Shown: piece by piece, positions 40,357 to 54,848 of the stretch
How positions within the stretch are numbered: position 1 is the first letter of the stretch
Layout of the letters: each line of letters opens with the position of its first letter
Origin: Chryseobacterium gleum
GTDB lineage: Bacteria; Bacteroidota; Bacteroidia; Flavobacteriales_D; Crocinitomicaceae
Length of the DNA stretch: 64,000 nt
Assembly: GCA_945897805.1 (NCBI GenBank)
Contig: CAMDFX010000009.1
Span: forward strand, 1 to 64,000
Direction of reading: 5' to 3'
Notes under the pieces: generated by a model
Told to the model about the DNA's origin: nothing
What the model saw: only the letters and a program-made list of their open reading frames with translations
Database searches by the model: none
Translations under genes and position numbers: made by a program

Positions 40357-43293
40357 ATGAAAAACACACTTGTATTAATAGCAGTTATATTTTTGAATAC
40401 ACTTTTATTTGCTCAAAGCAGTAACATTAGAGGAATAGTTTTAGATACAAAGGGTGGAATACCAGGTGCTTTGGTTAAGTTTCAAAATTCAAACATCAAA
40501 ACTTTAACAGATATTAATGGTGAATTTTCATTCAATGATATTTTGAAGGGAGATTATACATTGGAAATAGAGGCTTTAGGATATGAAGTTTTGCTTTTTA
40601 ATTTTAATAATGATGGATTAGAAGATAAAAACTTGGGAAATCTTCAATTGAGTCAAGTTAATAAAATTGAAGAGGTTTCAGTAACTGCAAACGCAAAGAA
40701 TACTGAAAATAAGGCAATAAATATGACTAAAAATGCGGTACAAATTGTAAATGTTGTGTCTGCTGAAACAATCAGTAAATTGCCAAACAAAAATGGTGCT
40801 GATGTAGTTGCCAGAATTTCAGGTGCTTCTGTCACAAGAAACAAAGGTGAAGGAAGTAATATTTCTCTTAGAGGAACACCAATAGATTGGACCGCAACCT
40901 TTTTAAATGGTGATAGATTACCAGTTGCCGACGAGGAAAATACAACAAGATCATTTGATTTTCAGATTCTTCCATCAAACATGATTGATTATGTAATTGT
41001 CACTAAGAGTAATACTCCAGATATTGAGGCAGATAACATTGGAGGAAGTATCAATTTTTTATCAAAAAGTTATGTAAATAAAAGAACGTTTGGTTTAAAT
41101 GTTGCTGGTGGCTACAATCCGTTGGCTCAAAAACCACTGGGTACTTTGAATTTTCTTTATGGAGATATCACAAAAAACAAGAAGTTTAGTTTTGTGGTTA
41201 ATGGTTCGACTTTTGCCAGAAATTATGCAACTGATGCGACGAAAATTATTTATGGTAGTAATTTTAACCATGGGCTAAATAGATTAGAACTAAAGAGATA
41301 TGATGGTATAAGAATAAATACATCAGCAAATCTGGCATTTGAATATAGACCAAATAAGAAAGTGAAGATTGGGTCACACATGGTTTACAGCAATATGAAT
41401 GACAATAAATATCAAAAAAAGCAAAGTTTTAATTGGTATGAAGGTTCTGGTCAGCGAGTGAGACTTCAAAGTATTCATGGTGAATTATTGCGACAATTAT
41501 ATGGAGGTGATATTTTTACAGAAATTGCCATTTCTTCCAAGTTAAAAGTGAAGGCCAAATTTGCCACCTACAATAACAATTTTCATTATGGAAATGTGCC
41601 TATCGATGATAAAAAAGATAAACGAAATGGATACTACACAATTGAATTTATAAGTCCACTTTTGCAATTTTCAGATCAAGATATTGTCAGTTTATATGGA
41701 CAAACAATAGATCCAAATGATCCAAATGGCTTTCCAACAAAGTTAATTGGAGGTGATAATCCATACGGAAATGGGGATTCGCCGTCTAATATTCAGCCCC
41801 AATTTGCGCAGATTTTTCAAAACAAACCATTAGAAACTAAGGATTTTGAGTTTTATAAAGCTTACACTGAAACAAATAACACAAATGAAAGAGACAAAAT
41901 TGTTTCGCAATTAGATTTTGAATACAAAGCGTCAAATAATTTAAAATTAAAAGTAGGTTCAAAATACAGAAACAAAGAAGGTTACAGACACATTTCTTTA
42001 CATCAATGGTTTCAAGATTATTCAATTCCCGGAAACAATAGTCCTATTAAATTACAGGATTTTGAACTGGAAAATTTTAGTCAAACTCCAGGTGGATTTT
42101 TAAGAGAGACTGGAGCAAATTATCAAAATAGTTTGTTTCCCTTTTTAACTTTAAATGAGGCGGCATCTTTTTTAGCGAAAACAAATGGCAAAATGAGAGA
42201 AGTGGAAATGGACAAATTTAACCAAGAATTTGCTCAATGGGTTGGTTCAAGTTATGACTACAAGGAGAAGCAGTTTGATGCTTATGGAATGGCTGAATAT
42301 TCTTTTAAAAATTTCAATTTCGTGGGAGGGGCAAGATTTGTGCATACTAATTTGTACGAGACATCAGATACATTGACTGCTGAATTAGCATACGATTCCC
42401 TTTCAGGTTCGATTTACAATGTTCCTGCTCAAAGAGTAACATCCAAAATTTACAATAAATTATTGCCTTCGCTTAATATCATTTACAACCACAAAAAAAA
42501 TCAAAACATCAAATTTGCATTTTCACAATCATTGAAACGACCAAATTTTGAACAAACGAAACCAGGAGCTGCTGTGGTGAAATATAATGATTTGATTTAC
42601 ATCTACGGAAATCCAAATTTAAAACCGACCACAGCTTTCAATTTTGATTTGTGCTACGAGTATTATTGGGGTAATAAAGGAATGTGGTCAGTGGGCGGAT
42701 ATTTTAAAAGTGTATATGATAATATTTTCACTGTAACAACTGCCGATATTGATCCTGCATCTGGATTAATGATTAAAAAGTACCAAAATTCTGACAAGGC
42801 AAAAGTCTACGGAGTCGAAATTACTTTTATTAGAAAATTCGATTTCTTACCTGGTGTTTTGAAAAATTTTGGTCTAAACACAAACATAACACTCTCTGAT
42901 TCTAGAATGAATGTTCCTGGAAGACCAAAGGCACAAAAAATGACTCAACAAACACCAGTAATTTATAATGTTGCTTTGACATATGAAAAGGGAGGATTTA
43001 ATTCAAGGGTAGCTCTGAATTATATAGGAAGACACCTTCAAGAAGTGAACTTGGCTTCCTTGGCTGGAATTGGATTACTGCACAAGGATTCTGACTTTGA
43101 TATTTTTATGAATCAGTATTATAATTTAGATATTCAATGTTCTTATACATTCAAAAAGATTTATACATTTTATTTAGAGGGAATTAATTTGCTAGATTTC
43201 CCACAACAAACATCCGTTGGTCAATCTTGGAGAAGCTTAAGAACAGAATATTATAGAATGAGAGGTCAAATTGGTTTTAAAATCGACATTTAA
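40357..43293 (+). CDS. TonB-dependent receptor 1 of phosphonate locus
   Basis: A 978-residue protein with a signal peptide (TLVLIAVIFLNTLLFAQ), a CarboxypepD_reg-like domain (about 23-100: GIVLDTKGGIPGALVKF, DGEFSF-like turn), plug (about 115-235: ISLRGTPIDWTATFLNGDRL, ADNIGGSINFLSK) and a C-terminal barrel ending with an aromatic-free strand (IGFKIDI). It belongs to the TonB-Xanth-Caul/CirA-type group rather than SusC; no SusD is adjacent. It likely imports the phosphonate-bearing substrate. The paralogue starts 2 bases downstream. Confidence 0.87.
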   Translation: MKNTLVLIAVIFLNTLLFAQSSNIRGIVLDTKGGIPGALVKFQNSNIKTLTDINGEFSFNDILKGDYTLEIEALGYEVLLFNFNNDGLEDKNLGNLQLSQVNKIEEVSVTANAKNTENKAINMTKNAVQIVNVVSAETISKLPNKNGADVVARISGASVTRNKGEGSNISLRGTPIDWTATFLNGDRLPVADEENTTRSFDFQILPSNMIDYVIVTKSNTPDIEADNIGGSINFLSKSYVNKRTFGLNVAGGYNPLAQKPLGTLNFLYGDITKNKKFSFVVNGSTFARNYATDATKIIYGSNFNHGLNRLELKRYDGIRINTSANLAFEYRPNKKVKIGSHMVYSNMNDNKYQKKQSFNWYEGSGQRVRLQSIHGELLRQLYGGDIFTEIAISSKLKVKAKFATYNNNFHYGNVPIDDKKDKRNGYYTIEFISPLLQFSDQDIVSLYGQTIDPNDPNGFPTKLIGGDNPYGNGDSPSNIQPQFAQIFQNKPLETKDFEFYKAYTETNNTNERDKIVSQLDFEYKASNNLKLKVGSKYRNKEGYRHISLHQWFQDYSIPGNNSPIKLQDFELENFSQTPGGFLRETGANYQNSLFPFLTLNEAASFLAKTNGKMREVEMDKFNQEFAQWVGSSYDYKEKQFDAYGMAEYSFKNFNFVGGARFVHTNLYETSDTLTAELAYDSLSGSIYNVPAQRVTSKIYNKLLPSLNIIYNHKKNQNIKFAFSQSLKRPNFEQTKPGAAVVKYNDLIYIYGNPNLKPTTAFNFDLCYEYYWGNKGMWSVGGYFKSVYDNIFTVTTADIDPASGLMIKKYQNSDKAKVYGVEITFIRKFDFLPGVLKNFGLNTNITLSDSRMNVPGRPKAQKMTQQTPVIYNVALTYEKGGFNSRVALNYIGRHLQEVNLASLAGIGLLHKDSDFDIFMNQYYNLDIQCSYTFKKIYTFYLEGINLLDFPQQTSVGQSWRSLRTEYYRMRGQIGFKIDI

Positions 43294-43295
43294 AG

Positions 43296-46214
43296 ATGTT
43301 TACTTGTAGCAATAAATCAATCTTATTTTTTTTCATTTTCTTTTTTGGATTCTCCTCATTTTCACAGGACCAAAAAGGAACAGTGAAAGGGCAAATTGCA
43401 GATTTTTATGGACCAATTTCAGGTGCCTATTTGAGAATTGATTCCCTAAATATAAAGGTAATTTCAAATGTGAATGGGGAATTCTACTTTTTTAATTTAG
43501 ATTCTGGAAAATACAATTTGACGATTCAACCCATTGGGTATATTGAAAAAAATGTCAAATTTGAAATTAAGTCAAGTGACATTCTTGATTTAGGTCAAAT
43601 TTTAATTGATCAAGTTGTTAATTTAGAAGAGGTTCTAATTAATACGAAAAGGAATAATTCTGTTAACCAGATTAAAAGCAATATCAATATTGTTTACATT
43701 AAAAACAAGGATGAGATTCATAAATTACCTGTGAAAAACGCTGCCGATATCGCCTCGAGGTTACCAAGTGTTTCTTTATTTAGAAATAAAGGTGAGAGCA
43801 GCATGGTTTCATTGCGTGGAACTCCAACTGACTGGACTGCTGTATTAATTAATGGAGATCGTTTGCCTGTAGCTTGTGAAGACAATACCACTAGAAGCTT
43901 TGAATTTGAGGCATTTCCATCCGATTTTGTTGATCAGGTTGTTGAATCCAAAACAGTTACACCTGATTTAGAATCTGACAATATTGGCGGAAGCATCAAT
44001 TTTTTAACTAAGCCTGCGGTGACAGAAAAACTGATGGAAATAAATATTGCCGCTGGGTTCAACTTTTTGGCCAAAAAACCAACAGGTACATTTAGTTTTA
44101 TTTACGGCAATTTATCTAAGAATAAAAAATGGAGTTTCATTTCGAATTTGACATATTTCGGAAGGAATTATGCAAGTGATGCCTATAAAATAATTTACGG
44201 TAGCAATTTAAATCATAGTGTAAATCGATTAGAATTAAGAAGATACGATGGGTTGAGGACGACAGTTGGAGCGCACACTTCTTTGCAATATAAGTTGAAC
44301 AGTAAAATTAAAATTGAATCAAATCTATTTTGCGGCTTCATGCAAGATGATAAAAATATGAAAAAGCAAAGTTTTAATTGGTATGATGACGATGGTCAGC
44401 GGTTAAGGCTACAGAATACAAAGGGAATATTGAATCGTAAAATTGTTGGCGGTGACTTATGTTCTGAAATAAATTTAAGTCCTAAAGTAAAACTAGAATT
44501 AAAGGTAGCCTCTTACAGTAATCAATTCAAATTTGGCCAGTCTCCTTTCTCAAAAAATGATTCTCGCAATGGTTTTTTCGTGACTGAATTTATGAGTCCA
44601 ATGTTACAATTTCAAGACTTTTCAGCGGTTGATATCAAAGGAAACATTCCTGACATAAACTCTACGCAGAATATTTTGGTAAAATTGATTGGTGATGATA
44701 ATCCATACTCAGCAGGGGATAGTCCCTTGAATGTTCAACCGAAATTTAGTAATATTTTAACTCCTGAAATGTTTCATTTTTCTAATGCCTATACGGAAAT
44801 CAATCATACGAGAGAGGGAGATCCGATTGTTTGCAAGGCTGATTTGGAGTACACTTTAAACAATAAAATAAAATTGCAGTTCGGAGCAAAATTTAGACAT
44901 AAAATTGGTTTTAGAAATATTTCAAAGCATGGATGGCTTCAAGATTTCAGTACAGGTAATTCAACTCCAATTTTGCTGACTGATTTTAGTAACCAGTTGT
45001 TTAGTGTTTCGAAGGAAGGATTTTTAAAAGAACTTGGCGCCAATTATGAAAAACTCAATTATCCTATGTTATCGGATCAAAGTCTCTCTAACTTCTTGGA
45101 ATTAAATCAAGGTAGGTTGAGAGAGGTGGAGATGAATAAATTGAATTATGAATATTATCAGTGGGTTGGTTCCAATTATAATTATACTGAAAATCAGCAT
45201 GCAACTTATGCGATGATTACTTATTCATATAAAAAAGTCGCTTTTTTGACAGGATTTAGAATTGAAAATACGCACTTACGAGAATCATCAGATACCTTGA
45301 CTTCCAACATTGCCTTTGATAGTTTGTCAGGAACTTACTTTTCAATTCCTGAAACAAGGACAATTCAAAGGCGATATATAGGTTTTTTACCATCCTTCAA
45401 TTTAAATTACTACATCAATAAAACCTCCACATTGCATTTGGCTGTGTCAAGAACTATGCACAGACCAAACTTCGAAGAAACAAAACCAGGAGCGGCTGTG
45501 ATTAGATTCAATGATTTGGAATACACATTCGGAAATCCAAATTTAAAACCCGTTTTTTCCTCTAATTTTGATATTTCTTATGATAAATTTTGGGGAAATA
45601 AAGGAATGTTTTCGATTGGGTTATATTTTAAAAATATTGAAAACCATATTTTTTCCGTGGTCACAAATAGTTCAGATGTAATTTCTGGAATCACAATGAA
45701 AAGATTTGAAAATGCAAATAATTCTTGGGTAAGCGGAATAGAATTGCTGTTCAATAAAAATTTAGATTTTATCAGTTCAAAATTGAAGAGATTTGAGATT
45801 AATTCTAATTTGACATATTCAATTTCAAGAATGAAAGTTAAAGGAAGGGAAAACTTTCAAGCGATGACTGAGCAAACTCCCTTGCTTTACAACTTATCAT
45901 TAAGTTATGAAGGTAAGAAATTAGCTATTTCAACTGGTCTATTGTACAATGGTAAATGTTTGACAGATTTGAATTTAGCAAGTATTGGAGGAGAATTACT
46001 GCATAAAAATTCCGATTTTGACATCTACCTGAATAGCTTTTACAGCCTTGATCTAATGCTTACTTTTCAAATATCCAAGCACGCAAACATTTATTTGGAA
46101 ATGAATAATTTACTTAATTCTCCAGAAAGAAAGTATGTCGGAAAGGACTGGCGTGTTGCTTCTACGGAGTACTACAGAAGTAGAAGTCAACTTGGAATAA
46201 AATTTGAATTTTAG
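43296..46214 (+). CDS. TonB-dependent receptor 2 of phosphonate locus (paralogue)
   Basis: A 972-residue protein, same architecture as its neighbour and clearly homologous along the whole length (e.g. VSLRGTPTDWTAVLINGDRL, SDNIGGSINFLTKPA, FGNPNLKPVFSSNFDISYDKFWGNKG split across the barrel, closing RSQLGIKFEF). The signal peptide is at the N-terminus (LFFFIFFFGFSSFSQ). A tandem duplication with divergence suggests two related ligands. Its start is 2 bases after the stop of receptor 1, so they are co-transcribed. No lipoprotein partner. Confidence 0.87.
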   Translation: MFTCSNKSILFFFIFFFGFSSFSQDQKGTVKGQIADFYGPISGAYLRIDSLNIKVISNVNGEFYFFNLDSGKYNLTIQPIGYIEKNVKFEIKSSDILDLGQILIDQVVNLEEVLINTKRNNSVNQIKSNINIVYIKNKDEIHKLPVKNAADIASRLPSVSLFRNKGESSMVSLRGTPTDWTAVLINGDRLPVACEDNTTRSFEFEAFPSDFVDQVVESKTVTPDLESDNIGGSINFLTKPAVTEKLMEINIAAGFNFLAKKPTGTFSFIYGNLSKNKKWSFISNLTYFGRNYASDAYKIIYGSNLNHSVNRLELRRYDGLRTTVGAHTSLQYKLNSKIKIESNLFCGFMQDDKNMKKQSFNWYDDDGQRLRLQNTKGILNRKIVGGDLCSEINLSPKVKLELKVASYSNQFKFGQSPFSKNDSRNGFFVTEFMSPMLQFQDFSAVDIKGNIPDINSTQNILVKLIGDDNPYSAGDSPLNVQPKFSNILTPEMFHFSNAYTEINHTREGDPIVCKADLEYTLNNKIKLQFGAKFRHKIGFRNISKHGWLQDFSTGNSTPILLTDFSNQLFSVSKEGFLKELGANYEKLNYPMLSDQSLSNFLELNQGRLREVEMNKLNYEYYQWVGSNYNYTENQHATYAMITYSYKKVAFLTGFRIENTHLRESSDTLTSNIAFDSLSGTYFSIPETRTIQRRYIGFLPSFNLNYYINKTSTLHLAVSRTMHRPNFEETKPGAAVIRFNDLEYTFGNPNLKPVFSSNFDISYDKFWGNKGMFSIGLYFKNIENHIFSVVTNSSDVISGITMKRFENANNSWVSGIELLFNKNLDFISSKLKRFEINSNLTYSISRMKVKGRENFQAMTEQTPLLYNLSLSYEGKKLAISTGLLYNGKCLTDLNLASIGGELLHKNSDFDIYLNSFYSLDLMLTFQISKHANIYLEMNNLLNSPERKYVGKDWRVASTEYYRSRSQLGIKFEF

Positions 46215-46285
46215 CACTTAATAATTTATTAATTTTTGTGAGAAAATCATCATAATTTATTAATATGATATTTTATGGCTTAAAT

Positions 46286-46300
46286 TATACTTGAAGTAAA
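46286..46300 (+). promoter_or_regulatory. Shared motif variant TATACTTGAAGTAAA, site 2
   Basis: A 12/15 match to the motif at 40264, in the 109-base gap before the NPP gene; it merges with the -7 box TAAATTTG. Confidence 0.4.
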
Positions 46301-46304
46301 TTTG
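46297..46304 (+). promoter_or_regulatory. -7 box TAAATTTG of NPP-type hydrolase gene
   Basis: An exact TAnnTTTG match, 19 bases upstream of the ATG at 46324; suggests an internal promoter in the locus. Confidence 0.45.
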
Positions 46305-46323
46305 TTTAAAATAAAAATTAGCC

Positions 46324-47559
46324 ATGAAAAAATTTATTACTTCCATTTTTGCACTTCTTTCTTTGAATGTTGCATTTTCATCCCAACCAAGAAAAGTACT
46401 TATAATTGGTATAGATGGACTTAGAGCCGATGCGCTTCAACAAGCGAATACTCCGAATATTGACAATCTGATTGCAGGAGGTTTTTATACTTATGAATCA
46501 TGGCATGAAGGAATTACAGTTTCTGGTCCTTCATGGTCAACAATTATGACAGGTGTTGAATATGAAAAACATGGTGTTACTAGTAATTCTTATTCTGGAA
46601 GTAATTATAATACCTATCCCTATTTTCCAACATTGGCTAAAACTTGTTTACAAGATTTGTATGCTGTTCAAATCGTACAATGGGCGCCAATGAGCGACAA
46701 TGTGTACAATGATGGATGGGATTTAAAATTAAAAGTTTGTGATGGTTGCGGTGCCAATAGTGTTTCAGCAACACAAACTCAATTAGCAAACCCTAATTTA
46801 GACGTTTTATTTACTTATTTTGATGAATGTGATCTAACTGGTCACTCTAGCGGTTTTAGCCCGCTAAATCCTGCGTATATGTCAGCAATTGAAACAGTTG
46901 ATGCTCATATTGGAAACATTATGACAGCCCTTTACAACAGACCAAATTATGCCAATGAAGATTGGATTGTACTTCTTACAACTGATCATGGTGGAATTGG
47001 AAATGGACATGGAGGAAATACTAATCTAGAAAGAAAAATTTGGTGGATTGGAAGTGGAAATAATCCTGTTGCTAATCAACTGACAGGTATTCAAGATCCA
47101 GGAAGTAGAGCGCTTGGGAATTTCAATGCAACTTTGGCGATACAAAATCCTTCTCAAGATGATATCGCAGTAACTGCTTTGGATCATTTATTTAGAGGAA
47201 CAGCTTGTAATCCATTTAATCCAGCTTGGGATTTTGATGGACAGTCTTGGTTGGATTCATTACATCAAGAAACATCAACCAATTCGCTAGCTAATATAAT
47301 TTCCAATGATTTTAATTTTAAAACCTTCCCGAATCCAAGCACAGATCTTGTTTCGGTTTGGTTTGAAAATGAAGCAAATGAAGCAATCAATTATAAATTA
47401 GTAGATAATCTTGGAAATATTGTGGAAGAGAAAAATAATGTTTCGCCAATGACTAAAAATAAATTAAATATTGACGTTTCAAATAAATCTGCTGGTGAGT
47501 ATTTTATTACCTTATTTATTGGAGGAAAAAGTAAAACAAACAAAATAATCATTAAGTAA
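46324..47559 (+). CDS. Secreted NPP/alkaline-phosphatase-superfamily hydrolase with T9SS tail
   Basis: A 411-residue protein with a signal peptide (ITSIFALLSLNVAFSSQ). The type I phosphodiesterase/NPP domain (about 24-315) keeps a two-metal site: the Asp of GIDGLRAD, the Ser/Thr nucleophile in ITVSGPSWSTIMTG, DECDLTGHS, TTDHGG and the later GHGG histidine. The last about 75 residues form a T9SS type A sorting domain (FKTFPNPSTDLVSV). The superfamily includes phosphodiesterases, NPPs and phosphonoacetate hydrolase. In this locus it may release phosphonate monoesters or free phosphonate outside the cell. Substrate is inferred from context only. Confidence 0.87.
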   Translation: MKKFITSIFALLSLNVAFSSQPRKVLIIGIDGLRADALQQANTPNIDNLIAGGFYTYESWHEGITVSGPSWSTIMTGVEYEKHGVTSNSYSGSNYNTYPYFPTLAKTCLQDLYAVQIVQWAPMSDNVYNDGWDLKLKVCDGCGANSVSATQTQLANPNLDVLFTYFDECDLTGHSSGFSPLNPAYMSAIETVDAHIGNIMTALYNRPNYANEDWIVLLTTDHGGIGNGHGGNTNLERKIWWIGSGNNPVANQLTGIQDPGSRALGNFNATLAIQNPSQDDIAVTALDHLFRGTACNPFNPAWDFDGQSWLDSLHQETSTNSLANIISNDFNFKTFPNPSTDLVSVWFENEANEAINYKLVDNLGNIVEEKNNVSPMTKNKLNIDVSNKSAGEYFITLFIGGKSKTNKIIIK

Positions 47560-47580
47560 ATTACTTAAAATAATCATGTT

Positions 47581-49581
47581 ATGAAAAATTTAGTACTTTT
47601 TAGTTTACTATCAGTTTTCAACTGTTTTGCTCAAGTCAATTCTGTCGGTTCTGGAAATTGTTTAGATTTTGAATCCAACACTGCGAACAACAATTATTGT
47701 GATTTAGGAAATTTAACTCAATTAAATACTAGCGATTTTACTTTTGAATGCTGGATGAAAGTAAATACTGTAACTGATGATGAAGCTTTCTTTTCAAATA
47801 AAGATTGGTCTTCAGGAAATAATACAGGGTTTGTTTTTGATGTGCAAGATAATGGTTCGGTTATGAAATTTAATTTTAAAGACCCTTCTAATCCAAGAAA
47901 GGACTTGACTTTGAATGTTGACGAAGTGAAATTGGATTGGTTTCATCTTGCAGCAACGTACAAAAGAGGAGGGTATTTTACAGTTTACATAAATGGCGTT
48001 GCCAAAGACAGTTTAGATGTAAGTTCTATCACAGGATCTTTTTTGTCAGCTTACACATATAAACTTGGGCAAGACGGAACTGGAAATTATTTTTGGAATG
48101 GAGCTAACCCGAAATTCAATGGTAAAATAGACGAAGTTAGAATTTGGGATGATATTAGGTCTGTCAATGAAATCAGAACAAATATGTGTAAAAAAGTAAG
48201 TCCTTCAGCGGCTAATTTGTATGCATATTATACTTGTGACGAAACAGCAGGAACAACATTAACCGATAGCTCAGTAAATGGATTTAATGGGTCGTTAATT
48301 AATTCAATTAATTCAATTTGGAAAATTTCGGGAGCTCCTATAGGAGATGAAAGTCTTTTCTTGTATGGTGCAAATATTGGTGCAAATACCTTCGAATTTA
48401 CCAGTTCAAATTTAGGGAATTTTAAACTTTCAAACATCTTAAATTCAACGGGAATTCATTTGTATAAAGTTGCAAATGTTCCTGTGATTTCAAATGGATT
48501 AAATTTATTGGTTGCTGACAATAGTTATTATGGTGTGTTTTCAGTTGATACAAATGCACAACTTAGCTATAAATTTGAAAGTAATTATGCTACAAATAGT
48601 TCCGCGCTATTAAATGAAGCAAACTTACTTTTATACAACAGAGTGAAAAGTGACGCACCAGTTTGGAGTATTTTTCAATCAAATCTAGACTTAGCAAACA
48701 ATATTATCAGCAAATCAGAAATCAATTACAAAAAAGAATTCATACTTGGTTTGCAATCTACTGCTTCTTGCGATTTTCCAACAAATATTTTAAATGTGAG
48801 TTCAACAATTAATTCTGCAACATTTAGTTGGGTAAATGGTTCTACTCCAGATAATAATATCCAATGGGGGCCGCAAGGATTTGTATTAGGGAACGGAACT
48901 GCAATTGTAAATACTTCCACTAATCCTACTACCATCGCTGGCTTGATTGCGAACAATTTATATGACTTTTATATTCAAGATACGTGCAATGCATCAGGAG
49001 CAAGTACTTGGGTTGGACCATTTCCGTTCACCACTTTGACTTGTGCGATTCCCTCAAATCTCTCAGCGACAAATATTACTTACAACGCAGCATTATTGTC
49101 TTGGACATCAACTAATCCACAAGCTAATTTTGATATCGAATGGGGTCCGTCTGGTTTTACTTTAGGATTGGGAATTCCTGTTTCTGGTATCTCAGGTTCT
49201 ACATCCTATTTGTTAAATGGATTAGCTGCAAACACTGAATACGCTTATTATGTGAGAACTAATTGCGGTGGAGGAAGTACTAGTTTTTATGCCGGACCGT
49301 TTATTTTTACAACAACCATAAATGATGCCGGCGTTGAAAGCTTACAGTCTGAAAGTCGTTTCAAAATTTTCCCTAATCCATCCAAGGGTAATTTTAACCT
49401 AGAATTTTCAGACAACCAAGCCAAATCGCTTAAAATCGTAAATGTATTAGGTGAAACAGTTTACCAAGAAAATCAGATTAATTCCGCTAAAAGTCTTAAA
49501 ATTGATTTAAGCGAAACTGAAAAAGGATTGTATTACATCATTTTAGACAATCAGTCAATTCAAAAATTGATTTTGAACTAG
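47581..49581 (+). CDS. LamG/FN3 surface protein with T9SS tail
   Basis: A 666-residue secreted protein. It has a signal peptide (LVLFSLLSVFNCFAQ), a concanavalin/LamG domain (about 20-225: FTFECWMKVNTVTDDEAFFS, GKIDEVRIWDDIRS), a middle region, two FN3-like repeats (about 395-580, sharing WGPxGFxLGxG phrases) and a T9SS sorting domain (about 590-666: FKIFPNPSKGNFNLEF). It is not an enzyme by sequence and probably binds a glycan or particle at the cell surface. It lies 21 bases after the NPP-type gene and ends at a terminator-like hairpin. Confidence 0.85.
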   Translation: MKNLVLFSLLSVFNCFAQVNSVGSGNCLDFESNTANNNYCDLGNLTQLNTSDFTFECWMKVNTVTDDEAFFSNKDWSSGNNTGFVFDVQDNGSVMKFNFKDPSNPRKDLTLNVDEVKLDWFHLAATYKRGGYFTVYINGVAKDSLDVSSITGSFLSAYTYKLGQDGTGNYFWNGANPKFNGKIDEVRIWDDIRSVNEIRTNMCKKVSPSAANLYAYYTCDETAGTTLTDSSVNGFNGSLINSINSIWKISGAPIGDESLFLYGANIGANTFEFTSSNLGNFKLSNILNSTGIHLYKVANVPVISNGLNLLVADNSYYGVFSVDTNAQLSYKFESNYATNSSALLNEANLLLYNRVKSDAPVWSIFQSNLDLANNIISKSEINYKKEFILGLQSTASCDFPTNILNVSSTINSATFSWVNGSTPDNNIQWGPQGFVLGNGTAIVNTSTNPTTIAGLIANNLYDFYIQDTCNASGASTWVGPFPFTTLTCAIPSNLSATNITYNAALLSWTSTNPQANFDIEWGPSGFTLGLGIPVSGISGSTSYLLNGLAANTEYAYYVRTNCGGGSTSFYAGPFIFTTTINDAGVESLQSESRFKIFPNPSKGNFNLEFSDNQAKSLKIVNVLGETVYQENQINSAKSLKIDLSETEKGLYYIILDNQSIQKLILN

Positions 49582-49590
49582 AAATCAATC

Positions 49591-49623
49591 AGCAGTAGTT
49601 TTTAAAAGGACTACTGCTTTTTA
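49591..49623 (+). terminator. Hairpin terminator inside the locus
   Basis: AGCAGTAGT / ACTACTGCT (49591-49599, 49610-49618) followed by a T run, just after the LamG gene. It would partly or fully separate the extracellular genes from the PHP-DUF5690-oxidoreductase genes, which then need a promoter or read-through. Confidence 0.75.
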
Positions 49624-49636
49624 AACTTTAAACAAT

Positions 49637-50506
49637 TTGTGGACTAATTATCATTGTCACAGCAATTATTGCGATGGAAAATCCAATTTGGAGGAATATG
49701 TTATTTCTGCAATTGAGAAAAATTTTATGTCGATTGGTTTTTCTTCTCACACTCCCTTGCCATTTGAAAATGAGTGGAGCATGAAAGAAAGTAATCTTGG
49801 AAATTATGCTAATGAAATTGCATATTTAAAGGAGAAATATCAAAAGAAAATTGAAATTTATAGGTCATTAGAAATAGATTATATAGATCAAATTTTTGAT
49901 AAAAATCATTCAATTTTAGCAAATATTAAATTAGACTACACCATTGGTTCATTGCATTTTCTTGGACAATTTGAAAATGGAAAACATTTTGAAATCGATG
50001 GGAATACTCAAATTTTTGTGAAAGGATTGGAAAGAATTTGGCAAAACGATCAAGATTTTTTGGTAACTAATTACTTTGAATCAATTTCAAAAATGATTGC
50101 AAACACAGCACCTACCGTCATTGGGCATTTCGATAAAATTAGATTTCACCAAGATTTAAATCAGAAATCAATAATTGATATTTATTCTGAGACGTACCAG
50201 AAAGAAGCGATAAAGTGTTTGACGACACTTTCTAAATCAGAATCTTTTTTGGAGATAAATACAAGAGGAATGTATAAGAAAGATCTTTCGGAACCATATC
50301 CTTCTTTAGATTTAATTCGCATTGCCAATGAACTCAATATTCCCTTATTACTAAATAGTGATTCGCACGCGCCTGCTGAAATTGATTCAAAATTCGCAGC
50401 GCTTGCGCCGATTTTAATTAAAAATGGTGTTCAGAAATTGAAAGTTTTAAAAGAAGGGTTTTGGATAGATGCCAAATTAACTGAAAATGGTTTAAAAATT
50501 CTTTGA
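49637..50506 (+). CDS. PHP-family phosphoesterase (histidinol-phosphatase-like)
   Basis: 289 residues from a TTG start; an in-frame stop lies just upstream, so no longer start exists. Metal ligands of the PHP barrel are visible: H6-x-H8 with CDGK, SSHTP, YRSLEIDYI, GSLHF, VIGHFD and NSDSHAP. HisK-type PHP enzymes hydrolyse phosphomonoesters, and some relatives act on phosphodiesters. No histidine gene is near, and it is 1 base ahead of the DUF5690 gene, so here it more likely cleaves a phosphonate or phosphate ester in the AEP route. Substrate unproven. Confidence 0.82.
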   Translation: MWTNYHCHSNYCDGKSNLEEYVISAIEKNFMSIGFSSHTPLPFENEWSMKESNLGNYANEIAYLKEKYQKKIEIYRSLEIDYIDQIFDKNHSILANIKLDYTIGSLHFLGQFENGKHFEIDGNTQIFVKGLERIWQNDQDFLVTNYFESISKMIANTAPTVIGHFDKIRFHQDLNQKSIIDIYSETYQKEAIKCLTTLSKSESFLEINTRGMYKKDLSEPYPSLDLIRIANELNIPLLLNSDSHAPAEIDSKFAALAPILIKNGVQKLKVLKEGFWIDAKLTENGLKIL

Positions 50507-50507
50507 A

Positions 50508-51794
50508 ATGTCAGCTAAAACTAAATTATTTCTGTCGAATTCAAATCCTAAAATCTTGACAATTTTTGCCACACTTGCGGCCTTTTGTATTTACACTTCC
50601 ATGTACGCTTTTAGAAAAGCATTTTCTGTGGCGGAATTTGAAAACATCACTTTTTTTGGCATCGATTATAAAATAATCTTGATTTCGGCTCAAATTATTG
50701 GGTATACAATTTCAAAATTTATTGGGATCAAAATAGTTGCTGAAATTACTTCAAAAAATAGGGGGAAATTGATTCTAGCTTTGACATTAATTTCAGGTTT
50801 TTCGCTTTTTCTTTTTGCCGTGATTCCTCAACCTTATAATATTATTTGCTTGTTTTTAAATGGATTACCTATTGGAATGATTTTCGGATTAGTTTATACC
50901 TATCTGGAAGGCAGAAAAATAACAGAAATATTGGTTTTGGGTCTTTCATTGACTATGATTGTTTCCTCAGGATTCATTAAATCAATTGGAAAATTGATTT
51001 TAAGTTTAGGTGTTTCTGAATTTTGGATGCCATTTGTGGTCGTTTTAACGTTTTTGCCTTTGCTACTTTTAGCTGTATGGATGCTCAATCAAATACCTGC
51101 GCCCTCAGAGGAAGACATTGAAAAACGTACAAAAAGAAATCCGATGCATAAGGCGGAACGAAAGCGCTTTTTGAGGGAGTTTAAGTTAGGTTTGATTTTT
51201 TTCCTATTGGCTTACACAATTTTGACTATGTTCAGAGACTTCAGAGATAATTTTGCAGTTGAAATTTGGAAAGATTTAGGTTTTGGCGATAATATTTCTA
51301 TTTATTCCAAAACTGAAATTCCAATTGGGATCTCTGTTGTAATCGTAATGACTTCGCTCAATTGGATCAAAAACAATACTAAAGCTTTTTATGTAATACA
51401 TTTAGTATCCATAGTTGGCGCAATGTCGATCGGGATTTCAACTTATTTATTTGAACTGCAAATAATATCTCCTTTTTTATGGATGACATTATTGGGTCTT
51501 GGTTTATATATTTCTTATATTCCAGCAAATACAATCTTTTTTGAGCGTCTAGTTTCTTCATTCAAGTACATCAGCACTGCTGGGTTTATGGTAACACTTG
51601 CTGATTTTTATGGATACTTCGGTAGCGTGGGAATTCTTTTTTATAAAAATTTTGGAAATAGTCAATTGAGTTATCTTAGTTTCTTTAAATCTGCAAGTTA
51701 CATTATTTCTTTTGCTGTTTCTTTCTTGTTCGTATTGTCATTTTTATATTTTTATACTAAAGTGAGAAGCCAAAATCAATCTTCAAATAAATAG
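50508..51794 (+). CDS. DUF5690 membrane transporter, OPA/GlpT-like
   Basis: A 428-residue protein with about 12 membrane spans. It matches DUF5690; the first span has FCIYTSMYAFRKAFSV, which strongly resembles the Y-x-x-M-Y-x-x-R-K opening of the organophosphate:phosphate antiporters (GlpT/UhpT), and a basic intracellular loop (KRTKRNPMHKAERKR) splits the two six-helix halves. In this locus it is the only inner-membrane transporter, so it is the best candidate importer of AEP or an AEP ester. The start follows the PHP stop by 1 base, and the oxidoreductase follows after 6. Confidence 0.8.
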   Translation: MSAKTKLFLSNSNPKILTIFATLAAFCIYTSMYAFRKAFSVAEFENITFFGIDYKIILISAQIIGYTISKFIGIKIVAEITSKNRGKLILALTLISGFSLFLFAVIPQPYNIICLFLNGLPIGMIFGLVYTYLEGRKITEILVLGLSLTMIVSSGFIKSIGKLILSLGVSEFWMPFVVVLTFLPLLLLAVWMLNQIPAPSEEDIEKRTKRNPMHKAERKRFLREFKLGLIFFLLAYTILTMFRDFRDNFAVEIWKDLGFGDNISIYSKTEIPIGISVVIVMTSLNWIKNNTKAFYVIHLVSIVGAMSIGISTYLFELQIISPFLWMTLLGLGLYISYIPANTIFFERLVSSFKYISTAGFMVTLADFYGYFGSVGILFYKNFGNSQLSYLSFFKSASYIISFAVSFLFVLSFLYFYTKVRSQNQSSNK

Positions 51795-51800
51795 GATATT

Positions 51801-52910
51801 GTGAAATATGATGTGTGTATTGTTGGAGCTGGAATTGTTGGTTTATCCCATGCTTATTGGTGTTCAAAAAAAGGGTTAAAGGTTTTAGTTGTCGACAAAG
51901 ATCAGTCTTGTCTGGGTGCTTCGATAAGAAATTTTGGCTTGTTTTGGGAAATTGGACAAGAGAAAGAATTTTCAGATATGGTCCAAATTTCTAAATCCGT
52001 TTGGAATGAATTTTTCACTGAAACAAATGCTTGGTACAAAAACAATGGTGCTTTAGGATTGGCATATCATGATGTTGAATATGAGGTTATTAGAGAATAT
52101 GTAAATGAATCATACGACCAATCTCACCAACTTTTAAGTAGCAAAGAAGTTGAAGGTTTATTCCCATATGTCAACGCTAGCAACTTGAAAGGGGCATTAT
52201 TGAGTAAAAATGAAAAAACAATAAACAGCAGGGAAACAATTCCCAAAATTAAAGAATGGTTAAAGGACAAATATAAAGTTGAGTTTTTAAATAATACCTT
52301 GATTATTGGAGAATCACTGCCAATCATTTTTACAAATCAGGGACAAATTAATGCGGAAAAGTTGATCGTAACCACTGGGTCTGATTATGAATATTTATTT
52401 CCAGAAGTATATAAAGGTGAAAATATTACAAAGTGTAAACTACAAATGCTTAAAACTAATCCAATAGTGACTAGAATTGAGCCAACACTTTTTTCGGCAA
52501 CTTCCTTTATTCATTATAATTCTTTTTCAATTTGCAAATCTTTAGAAGACTTAAGAAAACGAATAGCTAAGGAAAGTCCAGATATTATTTCTAATGGCAT
52601 AAATATATTGATTGCTCAAAATAATCACAATGAGTTATTGATAGGTGATTCACATATTTATTCAGATGCTGTTTCTCCCTTTAATTCTGAAAATATTGAT
52701 AATTCAATTTTAACAGGTGTTCACTCACTTTTGAAGAATGAAAAGCTTGAAATAAAAGAAAGATGGACAGGTGTTTACACTAAATCGATGGATAAAAAGT
52801 ATCTAGTTAAAAAGATAAGCGATAATATTTTAATAGTCAATGCTTTAGCAGGAGCTGGAATGACATTGAGTTTTGGATTAGCAAAAAAGACCATGGAAGA
52901 TTTTTTATAA
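51801..52910 (+). CDS. FAD-dependent oxidoreductase (TIGR03364-type) of phosphonate metabolism
   Basis: 369 residues from a GTG start. The N-terminus has the dinucleotide-binding CIVGAGIVGLSHA and LVVDKDQSCLGASIRNFG; the C-terminus has LIVNALAGAGMTLSFGLAKK. It belongs to the DAO superfamily and matches the TIGR03364 subgroup, which typically sits beside phnW and phosphonatase genes; relatives oxidise N-modified or other aminoalkyl phosphonates. Here it could bring a modified AEP into the pathway. The start sits 6 bases after DUF5690. Confidence 0.87.
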   Translation: MKYDVCIVGAGIVGLSHAYWCSKKGLKVLVVDKDQSCLGASIRNFGLFWEIGQEKEFSDMVQISKSVWNEFFTETNAWYKNNGALGLAYHDVEYEVIREYVNESYDQSHQLLSSKEVEGLFPYVNASNLKGALLSKNEKTINSRETIPKIKEWLKDKYKVEFLNNTLIIGESLPIIFTNQGQINAEKLIVTTGSDYEYLFPEVYKGENITKCKLQMLKTNPIVTRIEPTLFSATSFIHYNSFSICKSLEDLRKRIAKESPDIISNGINILIAQNNHNELLIGDSHIYSDAVSPFNSENIDNSILTGVHSLLKNEKLEIKERWTGVYTKSMDKKYLVKKISDNILIVNALAGAGMTLSFGLAKKTMEDFL

Positions 52911-52987
52911 AGTGATGTTCCACTGTTAAATCTAAATTAAACTCACAACATATTTATGTTATAAATAGGAAATAATTAGCTTAAAAT

Positions 52988-53002
52988 TATAGTATAAGTA
53001 AA
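52988..53002 (+). promoter_or_regulatory. Shared motif TATAGTATAAGTAAA, site 3
   Basis: Identical to the 15-mer at 40264-40278; eight bases before the -7 box of the HAD gene. Confidence 0.55.
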
Positions 53003-53009
53003 TTTAATG

Positions 53010-53017
53010 TAGTTTTG
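53010..53017 (+). promoter_or_regulatory. -7 box TAGTTTTG of HAD-phnW operon
   Basis: An exact TAnnTTTG match, 17 bases before the ATG at 53035; suggests a second promoter in the locus. Confidence 0.5.
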
Positions 53018-53034
53018 TAAAAAAATAAATTGAA

Positions 53035-53730
53035 ATGGGAATTAAACTAGTTGTATTAGACATGGCAGGTACGACTGTTCATGATGAAGACTTTGTAAAC
53101 GTTGCTTTACAAAACGCTTTGATGGAACAAAATGTTGATTGTTCAAGAGACGATATAAACTCTGTAATGGGAATGGCTAAACCTTTAGCTATCAAACTAT
53201 TGTTAGAAATGCGTGCTAAGGATAAAGAATCAATCACTAATGAATTAGTAAGTGAGATACACACTTCTTTTCAGAATAAAATGGTTGATTTTTATGATAA
53301 TTCGCAAACAATCAAAGAAATTGAAGGTGTTTCTGAAGCTTTTCGTCAGTTTAATAAAATGAATATCAAAGTTGCGATAGATACTGGTTTTGACAGAAGA
53401 ATTGCCAACGCTATTTTTCAAAGAGTAGGTTGGATTGAAAATGGATTAGTTGATTACACTGTAACCAGTGATGAAGTTGAAAACGGAAGACCGCATCCAG
53501 ACATGGTTTTTAAAGCAATGAAACATTTTGACATTTCTGACGCCAAGGAAGTTGTTAAAGTGGGAGATACACCTTCAGATTTGAACGAAGGAAATAATGC
53601 TGGTTGTGGGTTGAATATTGCTGTTTTATCTGGTGCTTGCACAAAAGAGGAACTTATTATTTGCCCACATAGTCATATTTTAGATAGTGTTGCCCAAATT
53701 CCAGAACTTTTAAAAGGTTTGCTTTTATGA
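53035..53730 (+). CDS. Phosphonatase-type HAD hydrolase (PhnX-like)
   Basis: A 231-residue HAD protein. Nucleophile loop LDMAGTTVHDEDF (D9), SDEVENGRPHPDMVF with the Lys/Arg-type loop, and KVGDTPSDLNEG. It matches the phosphonatase-like subgroup. In the cap, M45-G-M-A-K49 keeps the Met-x3-Lys spacing of PhnX (M49...K53), so the Schiff-base lysine needed for C-P cleavage of phosphonoacetaldehyde is present. Product would be acetaldehyde and phosphate. The stop overlaps the phnW start (ATGA), coupling the two steps. Confidence 0.88.
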   Translation: MGIKLVVLDMAGTTVHDEDFVNVALQNALMEQNVDCSRDDINSVMGMAKPLAIKLLLEMRAKDKESITNELVSEIHTSFQNKMVDFYDNSQTIKEIEGVSEAFRQFNKMNIKVAIDTGFDRRIANAIFQRVGWIENGLVDYTVTSDEVENGRPHPDMVFKAMKHFDISDAKEVVKVGDTPSDLNEGNNAGCGLNIAVLSGACTKEELIICPHSHILDSVAQIPELLKGLLL

Positions 53731-54848
53731 AAAGATTATTTACTCCCGGCCCTTTAAATACCAGTGAAACTGTTAAAAGGGCGATGCTAACAGATGTTGG
53801 TTCTAGAGATATCGAATTCATTGATGCTGTGAAAGAAATAAGAGCAAAACTCTTACAAATTGGTAATGTTTCTCCAACCGAATTTTCAACAGTCATCATT
53901 CAAGGCTCGGGTACTTTCGGCATTGAAAGTGTCATAAAGAGCTCTATTAAGGAAGGTGATAAACTATTAATTTTGATTAATGGTGCTTACGGTGAGCGTA
54001 TTTTAAGAATAGCAAATATTCACAATATTCCAACCGAAATTATTCGTTTCAATGAAAATGAAATAATTGATGCAGAAATTGTTAAAACTGTTTTAGAAAC
54101 AAAACAGGATATTTCACATGTTGCTGTTGTTCATTGTGAAACAACTACTGGCTTAATGAATCCGATTCAAGAAATTGGAACGTTATGCGCCCAATTTGAA
54201 AAGACATATATCGTTGATGCAATGAGTAGTTTTGGTGGTGTGACTATTGACATTAATAAATGCAAAATCGATTTTTTAGTTTCTTCCTCTAATAAATGCA
54301 TCGAGGGTGTACCAGGTTTTTCTTTTGCCATTTGTAAAATTGTAAAATTAAATGATTGCAAAGGAAAAGCAAAAACACTAACTTTAGATCTTTACGAACA
54401 ATGGTTAGGTCTGGAAACTTCTGGGCAATTTAGATTTACGCCTCCAACTTTGGCAATCATGGCTTTCAATCAAGCAATCGATGAATTAATAGAAGAAGGT
54501 GGCGTTGAAGCAAGAGAGAAAAGATACCAAAACAACCAAAAAGTTTTGTTGGCAGGAACGTCAAAACTAGGCTTGAAAGAATATTTACCTAAAGAAATTC
54601 AAGGTCACATTATCAATTCTTTTTTATATCCAGAAGATGTAAATTTCAATTTTGAACATTTTTATAATAAATTAAATGACAGAAATTGTGTCATTTATCC
54701 TGGCAAATTGAGTAAAGTAAATGCCTTTAGAATTGGCAATATTGGACAACTTTTCGAAGAAGACATGAAGTACCTAGTAAGTTGCATGTCCGAAATATTT
54801 CAAGAAGAAAACACGATTATTTCTTATGAAGTTACTTCCAAAGGTTAA
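53727..54848 (+). CDS. phnW: 2-aminoethylphosphonate-pyruvate transaminase
   Basis: A 373-residue class V (fold type I) aminotransferase. PGPLNTSETVKRAML and VGSRDIEFI open the protein, and the PLP lysine is in SSNKCIEGVPGFSFAIC (about residue 192), as in PhnW. It converts AEP plus pyruvate to phosphonoacetaldehyde plus alanine. It is last in the locus and translationally coupled to the HAD gene, giving the full phosphonatase route. A clear terminator follows. Confidence 0.95.
   Translation: MKRLFTPGPLNTSETVKRAMLTDVGSRDIEFIDAVKEIRAKLLQIGNVSPTEFSTVIIQGSGTFGIESVIKSSIKEGDKLLILINGAYGERILRIANIHNIPTEIIRFNENEIIDAEIVKTVLETKQDISHVAVVHCETTTGLMNPIQEIGTLCAQFEKTYIVDAMSSFGGVTIDINKCKIDFLVSSSNKCIEGVPGFSFAICKIVKLNDCKGKAKTLTLDLYEQWLGLETSGQFRFTPPTLAIMAFNQAIDELIEEGGVEAREKRYQNNQKVLLAGTSKLGLKEYLPKEIQGHIINSFLYPEDVNFNFEHFYNKLNDRNCVIYPGKLSKVNAFRIGNIGQLFEEDMKYLVSCMSEIFQEENTIISYEVTSKG

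Follow-up and report, generated by a model that had tools for sequence, protein, structure and literature searches.

PhnCDE, PhnSTUV and AepXVW are ABC systems, and in this they are unlike DUF5690, the protein considered here, although the task they perform is the one that we propose for it. Once in the cell, 2-aminoethylphosphonate (AEP) is converted to phosphonoacetaldehyde by PhnW, and phosphonoacetaldehyde is cleaved by PhnX-type enzymes. AEP is said to be the commonest phosphonate in nature (PMC10590968), and its use has been followed by counting uptake genes in ocean metagenomes (PMC8316502). PbfD1, the assayed member of the TIGR03364 oxidoreductase family, makes phosphonoacetaldehyde from N-methyl-AEP, and oxidizes N-methyl-AEP better than AEP (PMC10590968). 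PhnW, PbfD1 and the PhnX-type enzymes are cytoplasmic, and hence some transporter must supply them. The GlpT-like permease AepP is reported to be essential for Pi-insensitive growth of Pseudomonas putida BIRD-1 on AEP (PMC8316502). An OPA protein, then, is able to import AEP, and DUF5690 most likely does likewise: we consider it very probable that this protein is an OPA-type secondary transporter of the inner membrane, representing a separate and divergent family, that imports aminophosphonates (AEP and N-methyl-AEP).

The window—the whole stretch of 64,000 nucleotides that was analyzed—contains an operon on the + strand in the order PHP phosphoesterase, DUF5690, TIGR03364 oxidoreductase, PhnX-like hydrolase, PhnW. 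The genes of the operon are given below, preceded by two upstream genes whose membership in the locus is putative.

43296..46214, + strand: TonB-dependent receptor (Pfam), a possible outer-membrane partner; SusC-/TonB-type receptors recur in DUF5690 loci
46324..47559, + strand: T9SS-secreted type I phosphodiesterase-like protein (PF01663 plus a T9SS tail), a possible release enzyme; similar enzymes recur in DUF5690 loci
49637..50506, + strand: PHP-domain (HisJ-family) phosphoesterase, TTG start (TIGR01856, 159 bits, cut-off 90)
50508..51794, + strand: DUF5690 protein, 428 aa, ATG start (PF18943, E 2.9e-151, whole profile); proposed inner-membrane aminophosphonate transporter of OPA-like MFS fold
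51801..52910, + strand: FAD-dependent oxidoreductase TIGR03364 (the family of PbfD1), GTG start (368 bits, cut-off 285)
53035..53730, + strand: PhnX-like HAD hydrolase (TIGR03351, 213.9 bits, just under the cut-off of 218.9)
53727..54848, + strand: PhnW, 2-aminoethylphosphonate-pyruvate transaminase (TIGR02326, 451 bits, cut-off 400.8)

Upstream of the operon there is also a T9SS-secreted LamG/fn3 protein (Pfam). The PHP protein is, by its sequence, of the HisJ family, and its role in the locus is putative. The PHP ORF ends at 50506, 1 base before DUF5690, and the oxidoreductase ORF starts at 51801, 6 bases after it; an earlier, sequence-only reading of this DNA had given gaps of just these lengths, and the ORF coordinates bear them out. 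DUF5690 scores 504 bits with PF18943 (cut-off 25) across profile positions 1–382, and the other four proteins of the operon belong to soluble enzyme families (Pfam/NCBIfam scans). The same scans found no component of PhnCDE, PhnSTUV or AepXVW among the eight ORFs of 43296–54848, so the earlier statement that the locus lacks transporters of these types holds. Rival transporters were sought throughout the source genome (3.19 Mb in 25 contigs, 99.9% complete) with PhnD-family, PhnE-family, SBP_bac_6 and OPA models. The PhnD family (TIGR01098) has no match anywhere in this genome, and the PhnE family has weak matches only, of 22.7 bits at most against a cut-off of 216.7. SBP_bac_6 has one match genome-wide (44.2 bits), a lipoprotein-like ORF on another contig, and the best match to an OPA model, 62 bits, is likewise on a different contig from the DUF5690 locus.

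DUF5690 and aminophosphonate genes go together in Bacteroidota, the phylum in which the window is placed by its relatives. In a set of 392 genomes, with DUF5690 and PhnW counted above their cut-offs and TIGR03364 at E 1e-40 or better, DUF5690 occurs in 44 genomes and in 33 of 179 genera; these 44 genomes, and the 49 loci within them, leave out G268, which falls under the Pfam cut-off, and a DUF5690 fragment in G361. PhnW occurs in 14 of the 392 genomes and TIGR03364 in 35 (34 of them above the curated cut-off), and DUF5690 is present in 10 of the former and 32 of the latter. Genomes with either marker have DUF5690 in 37 cases of 41, versus 7 of the 351 others (Fisher 3e-40, the genomes being treated as independent though they are related). 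Viewed from the other side, 37 of the 44 DUF5690 genomes encode PhnW or TIGR03364, and seven encode neither; G065, one of the seven, has a sub-cut-off PhnW match (303.5 bits) elsewhere in its genome. PhnW itself is above its cut-off in just 10 of the 44, and the TIGR03364 oxidoreductase is therefore the better partner. Because it is, and because PbfD1 prefers N-methyl-AEP, the cargo is, by analogy, probably aminophosphonates rather than AEP alone.

The genes are close to one another as well. Measured start to start, 25 of the 35 TIGR03364 genes and 7 of the 14 PhnW genes lie within 3 kb of DUF5690, and chance would place about 0.2 of the 35 TIGR03364 genes within 12 kb, assuming genomes of 4.2 Mb. 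Of the 49 DUF5690 loci, 34 start no farther than 12 kb from a PhnW or TIGR03364 gene, and 15 have neither in that range. A DUF5690 mostly found without phosphonate genes would have told against the sequence-only reading, by its own terms; with markers in 37 of 44 genomes and nearby in 34 of 49 loci, this did not come true. The association extends to Alphaproteobacteria: among 377 genomes, DUF5690 is found in five and TIGR03364 in 24, and both are found in four of the five DUF5690 genomes versus TIGR03364 in 20 of the 372 others (Fisher 6e-5, or 8e-4 without the center genome, which was picked for having DUF5690). Three alphaproteobacterial DUF5690 loci were scanned; oxidoreductase and hydrolase adjoin in one, and no marker is present in two. 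TIGR03364 is encoded by 6 of the 14 genomes behind non-typical DUF5690 loci.

Clustering of neighboring proteins reveals a recurrent set around DUF5690: the TIGR03364 oxidoreductase, PhnX-like hydrolase, an HTH-cupin regulator, SusC/SusD and phosphodiesterase-like enzymes, joined in some neighborhoods by PbfA, PhnA, PhnY or an HD-domain protein. Representative neighbors exceed the curated cut-offs for PbfA (NF049939), PhnA (TIGR02335) and PhnY (TIGR03250), and the HD neighbor scores 206.5 with TIGR03276 (phosphonate-degradation oxygenase), just short of its cut-off of 214.6; one protein cluster, ‘c2’, mixes phosphodiesterase-like proteins with others that have a T9SS tail, and its counts are rough. 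Eighty related loci with organism names (an 81st, L056, was subtracted) were scored with marker models built in this analysis, the training of which omitted the second aminotransferase of L041 (PbfA model) and one of L055 (PhnY model). A core catabolic gene (TIGR03364, PhnX-like, PhnW, PbfA, PhnA or PhnY) is present in 46 of the 80, with the oxidoreductase in 39, PhnX-like in 37, PbfA in 5 and PhnW in 4; among non-core genes, the HTH-cupin regulator is present in 39 and the HD protein in 24. In the remaining 34 the scan, which ran to 9 kb or to the end of the contig, met no core marker; some of these loci have regulator, SusC/SusD, phosphodiesterase-like or HD genes. By organism label, the loci with core markers include Cytophagales, Chryseobacterium, Mucilaginibacter, Saprospiraceae, Balneolaceae, Ignavibacteriales, Caulobacter, Stenotrophomonas and a deltaproteobacterium. 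Public annotation gives minimal, three-gene DUF5690–phnX–phnW clusters in Bacteroides finegoldii (L204 8881–12219) and Parabacteroides distasonis (L205 4267–7550), and the gene order DUF5690–TIGR03364–phosphonoacetaldehyde hydrolase in Novosphingobium; in Stenotrophomonas the order is hydrolase–DUF5690–oxidoreductase.

A PHP phosphoesterase gene adjoins DUF5690 in marker order in 14 of the 80 related loci (L086–L088, L090–L095, L097, L098, L100, L110 and L153), which mostly bear Cytophagales-type labels. DUF5690 is also repeatedly accompanied by receptors (SusC/SusD or TonB) and by secreted enzymes resembling phosphodiesterases, in the window (40357–49581) and in L046, L138, L150 and L151, and this recurrence suggests a utilization locus for phosphonate-bearing glycans or lipids.

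Might the cargo, then, be something else that the locus yields, for instance a phosphonate ester from the secreted phosphodiesterase-like enzymes, and not free aminophosphonate? DUF5690 loci do repeatedly contain PHP phosphoesterases and SusC/SusD, as well as type I phosphodiesterase-like enzymes, and if the cargo were esterified, a PHP enzyme in the cytoplasm would make sense. We consider this unlikely, however, given the two minimal clusters, which are DUF5690, PhnX and PhnW alone; the known substrates of these enzymes are phosphonoacetaldehyde and free AEP.

Import of aminophosphonates by DUF5690 leads one to expect that a single slot in these clusters could be filled either by DUF5690 or by an OPA transporter, and this is what is found. 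Four genomes have PhnW without DUF5690 (G179, G215, G258 and G341), and in each of them an OPA transporter is encoded 1.3 to 5.9 kb from PhnW or TIGR03364, start to start. These four OPA proteins (L173–L176) occupy the same slot in the same kind of catabolic cluster as DUF5690, but, unlike the DUF5690 of the window, they match TIGR00881 clearly (163–247 bits), this being their best NCBIfam model. In the 10 PhnW genomes that do have DUF5690, no TIGR00881 match reaches 100 bits at a distance of 16 kb or less from PhnW or TIGR03364, a count limited by PhnW contigs of only 15–21 kb in three genomes, and by the 27 kb that separate PhnW from DUF5690 in G353. The exchange, 4 of 4 versus 0 of 10, has a Fisher value of 0.001; G014 has a 29-bit MFS match ∼8 kb from PhnW. 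A Hymenobacter record from a plasmid collection is a further instance of the same exchange: the 17 kb displayed encode an OPA protein, SusC/SusD, phosphodiesterase-like proteins and an HD oxygenase annotated as acting on phosphonates, but no DUF5690.

Three of these Bacteroidota genomes have clusters of PhnW, phosphodiesterase-like, PbfA, PhnA, PhnY and TIGR03364 genes (L173 632–15025, L175 1516–10664 and L176 1268–10405), the names coming from models built here and the PbfA of one being confirmed by NF049939. The pbfA–phnY–phnA combination is stated in PMC12366243 to be confined to Proteobacteria; AEP clusters with putative transporter genes are mentioned there, in passages that do not name the DUF5690 family. 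Annotated phosphate transporters adjoin certain clusters as well, an inorganic phosphate transporter in the case of the P. distasonis DUF5690 cluster (L205 886–3141), and a Na/Pi symporter in the case of the Hymenobacter OPA cluster (L206 6285–7265), and these may handle the phosphate that is set free.

Not all members of the family keep such company. One subfamily of paralogues, in which helix 1 reads IFGFRKS (L038, L055, L059, L062, L063 and L068), keeps the helix-1 and helix-7 motifs, and TIGR03364, PhnX-like and PhnW genes are all missing from the 8 kb around it; in the four of these six loci that were scanned, the neighbors are of pirin, Omp85, acetyltransferase, PfkB and TatD types, or unmatched. 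The cargo of the DUF5690 family may therefore extend to other phosphorylated compounds. One could go further, and suppose that DUF5690 carries organophosphates or phosphate in general, being kept by chance beside phosphonate genes and exporting, for example, the phosphate released in catabolism. The paralogues would fit, as would the residues kept in DUF5690, which correspond to the phosphate-binding ones of OPA proteins; AEP used as a nitrogen source leaves surplus phosphate, moreover, and Pi export on AEP is reported in Stappia stellulata (PMC8316502). That this is the whole story strikes us as quite unlikely, nevertheless. A transporter of the GlpT/AepP type stands in clusters without DUF5690; P. 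distasonis already has its annotated inorganic phosphate transporter 1.1 kb upstream of DUF5690–phnX–phnW, leaving DUF5690 for the phosphonate; and the cluster of B. finegoldii has no other transporter inside it, an MFS gene close by being on the opposite strand.

An aminophosphonate transporter of OPA type should look like one, and in its predicted fold DUF5690 does. The structure model, from 78 sequences (mean pLDDT 90.7, pTM 0.89), has the 12-helix MFS fold: 12 membrane-length helices were counted by eye, the fourth of them interrupted, and the loop that joins helices 6 and 7 itself contains short helices. The sequence-only reading had described a 12-span layout with a basic central loop. 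The top six Foldseek matches are all G6PT (SLC37A4; E 1.0e-7 to 2.2e-7, 15–17% identity), and sialin and FLVCR1 come next. In VIA, SLC37A4 is again in the first row (Z 33.7), with DgoT at 33.2, sialin at 32.7 and SPNS2 at 32.4, and GlpT (1pw4) is ranked 42, with Z 29.3 over 395 residues. DgoT, sialin and SPNS2 are about level with SLC37A4 and above GlpT, and OPA could not be picked out from the fold by itself.

Compared by hhalign with eight OPA sequences (GlpT, UhpT, UhpC and five Bacteroidota OPA proteins), DUF5690 scores Prob 96.8 (E 2e-10), with a set picked after an eleven-sequence one (Prob 94.1) had been seen, by dropping three sequences that score 44–63 bits on a model of three E. coli proteins. 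L177, the best TIGR00881 match among the OPA proteins found (279.8 bits), was one of the three. Over nine changes of the OPA set, Prob ranges from 94.1 to 97.3; it is 96.2 with L177 added back, and 94.5 to 97.3 when each of seven sequences is left out with the GlpT head kept. Seven control MFS profiles, thinner than the test profile (five pairs, one triple and one of 12 sequences), reach Prob 6.7 at most. Smaller OPA sets give 30.6 (the three E. coli proteins), 27.4 (with one added), 1.3 (those four with three others) and 2.4 (the four cluster OPA proteins alone), and the profile match to OPA thus depends on the mixed OPA set. Single-sequence hhalign comparisons with 13 E. coli transporters were rejected as a means of deciding: UhpT scores 27.9, UhpC 24.8, GlpT 19.1 (in the wrong register) and the others 20.2 or less. 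Among 18,950 NCBIfam models the lowest E, 2.4e-5, belongs to the OPA model TIGR00881, which is matched by 2 of the 78 members; the DUF5690 of the window does not match it, and the cluster OPA proteins fall under its curated cut-off (407.75) too. PF07690 has weak matches in 7 of 39 members (best 7e-4), the protein of the window not among them, BLASTP of this protein against GlpT gives no real match (best E 0.38), and the DUF5690 profile, run against the sequences of PDB chains, gives nothing at E 1 or better.

The first helix carries the motif YTSMYAFRK (residues 29–37), as was noticed from the sequence at the outset (Y-x-S-M-Y-A-F-R-K). Site residues align with those of GlpT as follows, the counts being of 130 sequences that are not all independent, for the locus sets overlap, and L142 and G329 are apparently one genome (identical TIGR03364 coordinates).

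50613..50618, + strand: codons of R36-K37, aligned with the R45-K46 ‘RK’ motif of GlpT, helix 1; R36 in 130/130, position 37 K in 121 and R in 9
50703..50717, + strand: codons of Y66 to K70, aligned with GlpT Y76 to K80, helix 2; Y66 in 128/130, K70 in 130/130
51234..51236, + strand: codon of R243, aligned with GlpT R269, helix 7; 130/130

The same correspondence of GlpT R45, K46, Y76, K80 and R269 with R36, K37, Y66, K70 and R243 appears in four GlpT-headed profiles, and R45, Y76, K80 and R269 map identically in all ten set-varied GlpT-headed profiles. A fold without the arginine pair of OPA members (R45 and R269 in GlpT), the other result that would have told against the sequence-only reading, is therefore not what DUF5690 has. 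These site positions are named as OPA determinants in PMC13046256. GlpT Y266 is not kept in the DUF5690 alignment, and H165 appears not to be; the GlpT 165 column has no His in DUF5690, and Tyr or Phe in the cluster OPA proteins, in a mapping that shifts between alignments. The helix-7 Arg is missing from L177, an OPA-model protein of the set. A signature shared by DUF5690 and the cluster OPA proteins at GlpT positions 165, 266 and 299 was considered and discarded: the H165 mapping moves, one alignment places E299 differently, and the four cluster proteins on their own align poorly.

The site residues of UhpC are identical to GlpT's, and UhpT and UhpC are the best, though weak, of the 13 single-sequence comparisons. 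DUF5690 could accordingly be imagined as a UhpC-like membrane sensor, an OPA relative that signals instead of transporting. The operon in the window contains no histidine kinase, however, the recurrent regulator of DUF5690 loci is the HTH-cupin protein, and it is OPA transporters that replace DUF5690 in clusters without it; a sensor seems to us highly improbable.

As an importer of aminophosphonates, DUF5690 would bring AEP and its N-methyl form into the cytoplasm, where the TIGR03364 oxidoreductase and PhnW would convert them to phosphonoacetaldehyde, and cleavage of this by the PhnX-type hydrolase would yield acetaldehyde and phosphate. If GlpT is a guide, R36 of helix 1, K70 of helix 2 and R243 of helix 7 would hold the phosphonate group between them, and import would probably be paid for by phosphate efflux. 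We infer transport itself, its direction, the cargo and the phosphate exchange from what is observed of the family, the operon, the co-occurrence, the replacement by OPA proteins, the predicted fold and the conserved site residues. A broader proposal, for which we would wager evenly for and against, is that DUF5690 is an old, separate family of aminophosphonate:phosphate antiporters, interchangeable with AepP-like OPA transporters and with N-methyl-AEP as a main cargo, that forms the core inner-membrane part of a Bacteroidota SusC/SusD-type locus comprising secreted phosphodiesterase, outer-membrane uptake, DUF5690, and TIGR03364/PhnW/PhnX.

The claim assigns a function to an unnamed family: neither ‘DUF5690’ nor ‘PF18943’ occurs in open-access full texts, subscription papers and preprints lying outside this search. 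If DUF5690 is an importer, counts restricted to phnD, phnS, aepX, aepS and aepP miss many Bacteroidota. The sequence-only reading had proposed a new family of AEP transporters; the family is new, and fold and co-occurrence support the proposal, but the kind is already known from AepP (PMC8316502), and the cargo is probably wider than AEP. What is new is the DUF5690 family and its spread; the GlpT-like AEP permease as such is already published.

DUF5690 has in common with the OPA family (GlpT, UhpT, UhpC and G6PT/SLC37A4) the 12-helix fold, the RK of helix 1, the Tyr and Lys of helix 2, and the Arg of helix 7. It differs in that the protein of the window is only 14–17% identical in structural alignments, matches no OPA model, and has replaced GlpT Y266 and, apparently, H165. 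AepP of P. putida BIRD-1, as described in PMC8316502, is, as DUF5690 is proposed to be, a single-protein, GlpT-like MFS transporter encoded among AEP catabolic genes, and it keeps the Pi-binding residues of GlpT but not those that affect the glycerol moiety. AepP is 27.75% identical to GlpT (PMC8316502), whereas DUF5690 is tied to GlpT by profiles and fold alone, and it is by these descriptions that the two are set apart.
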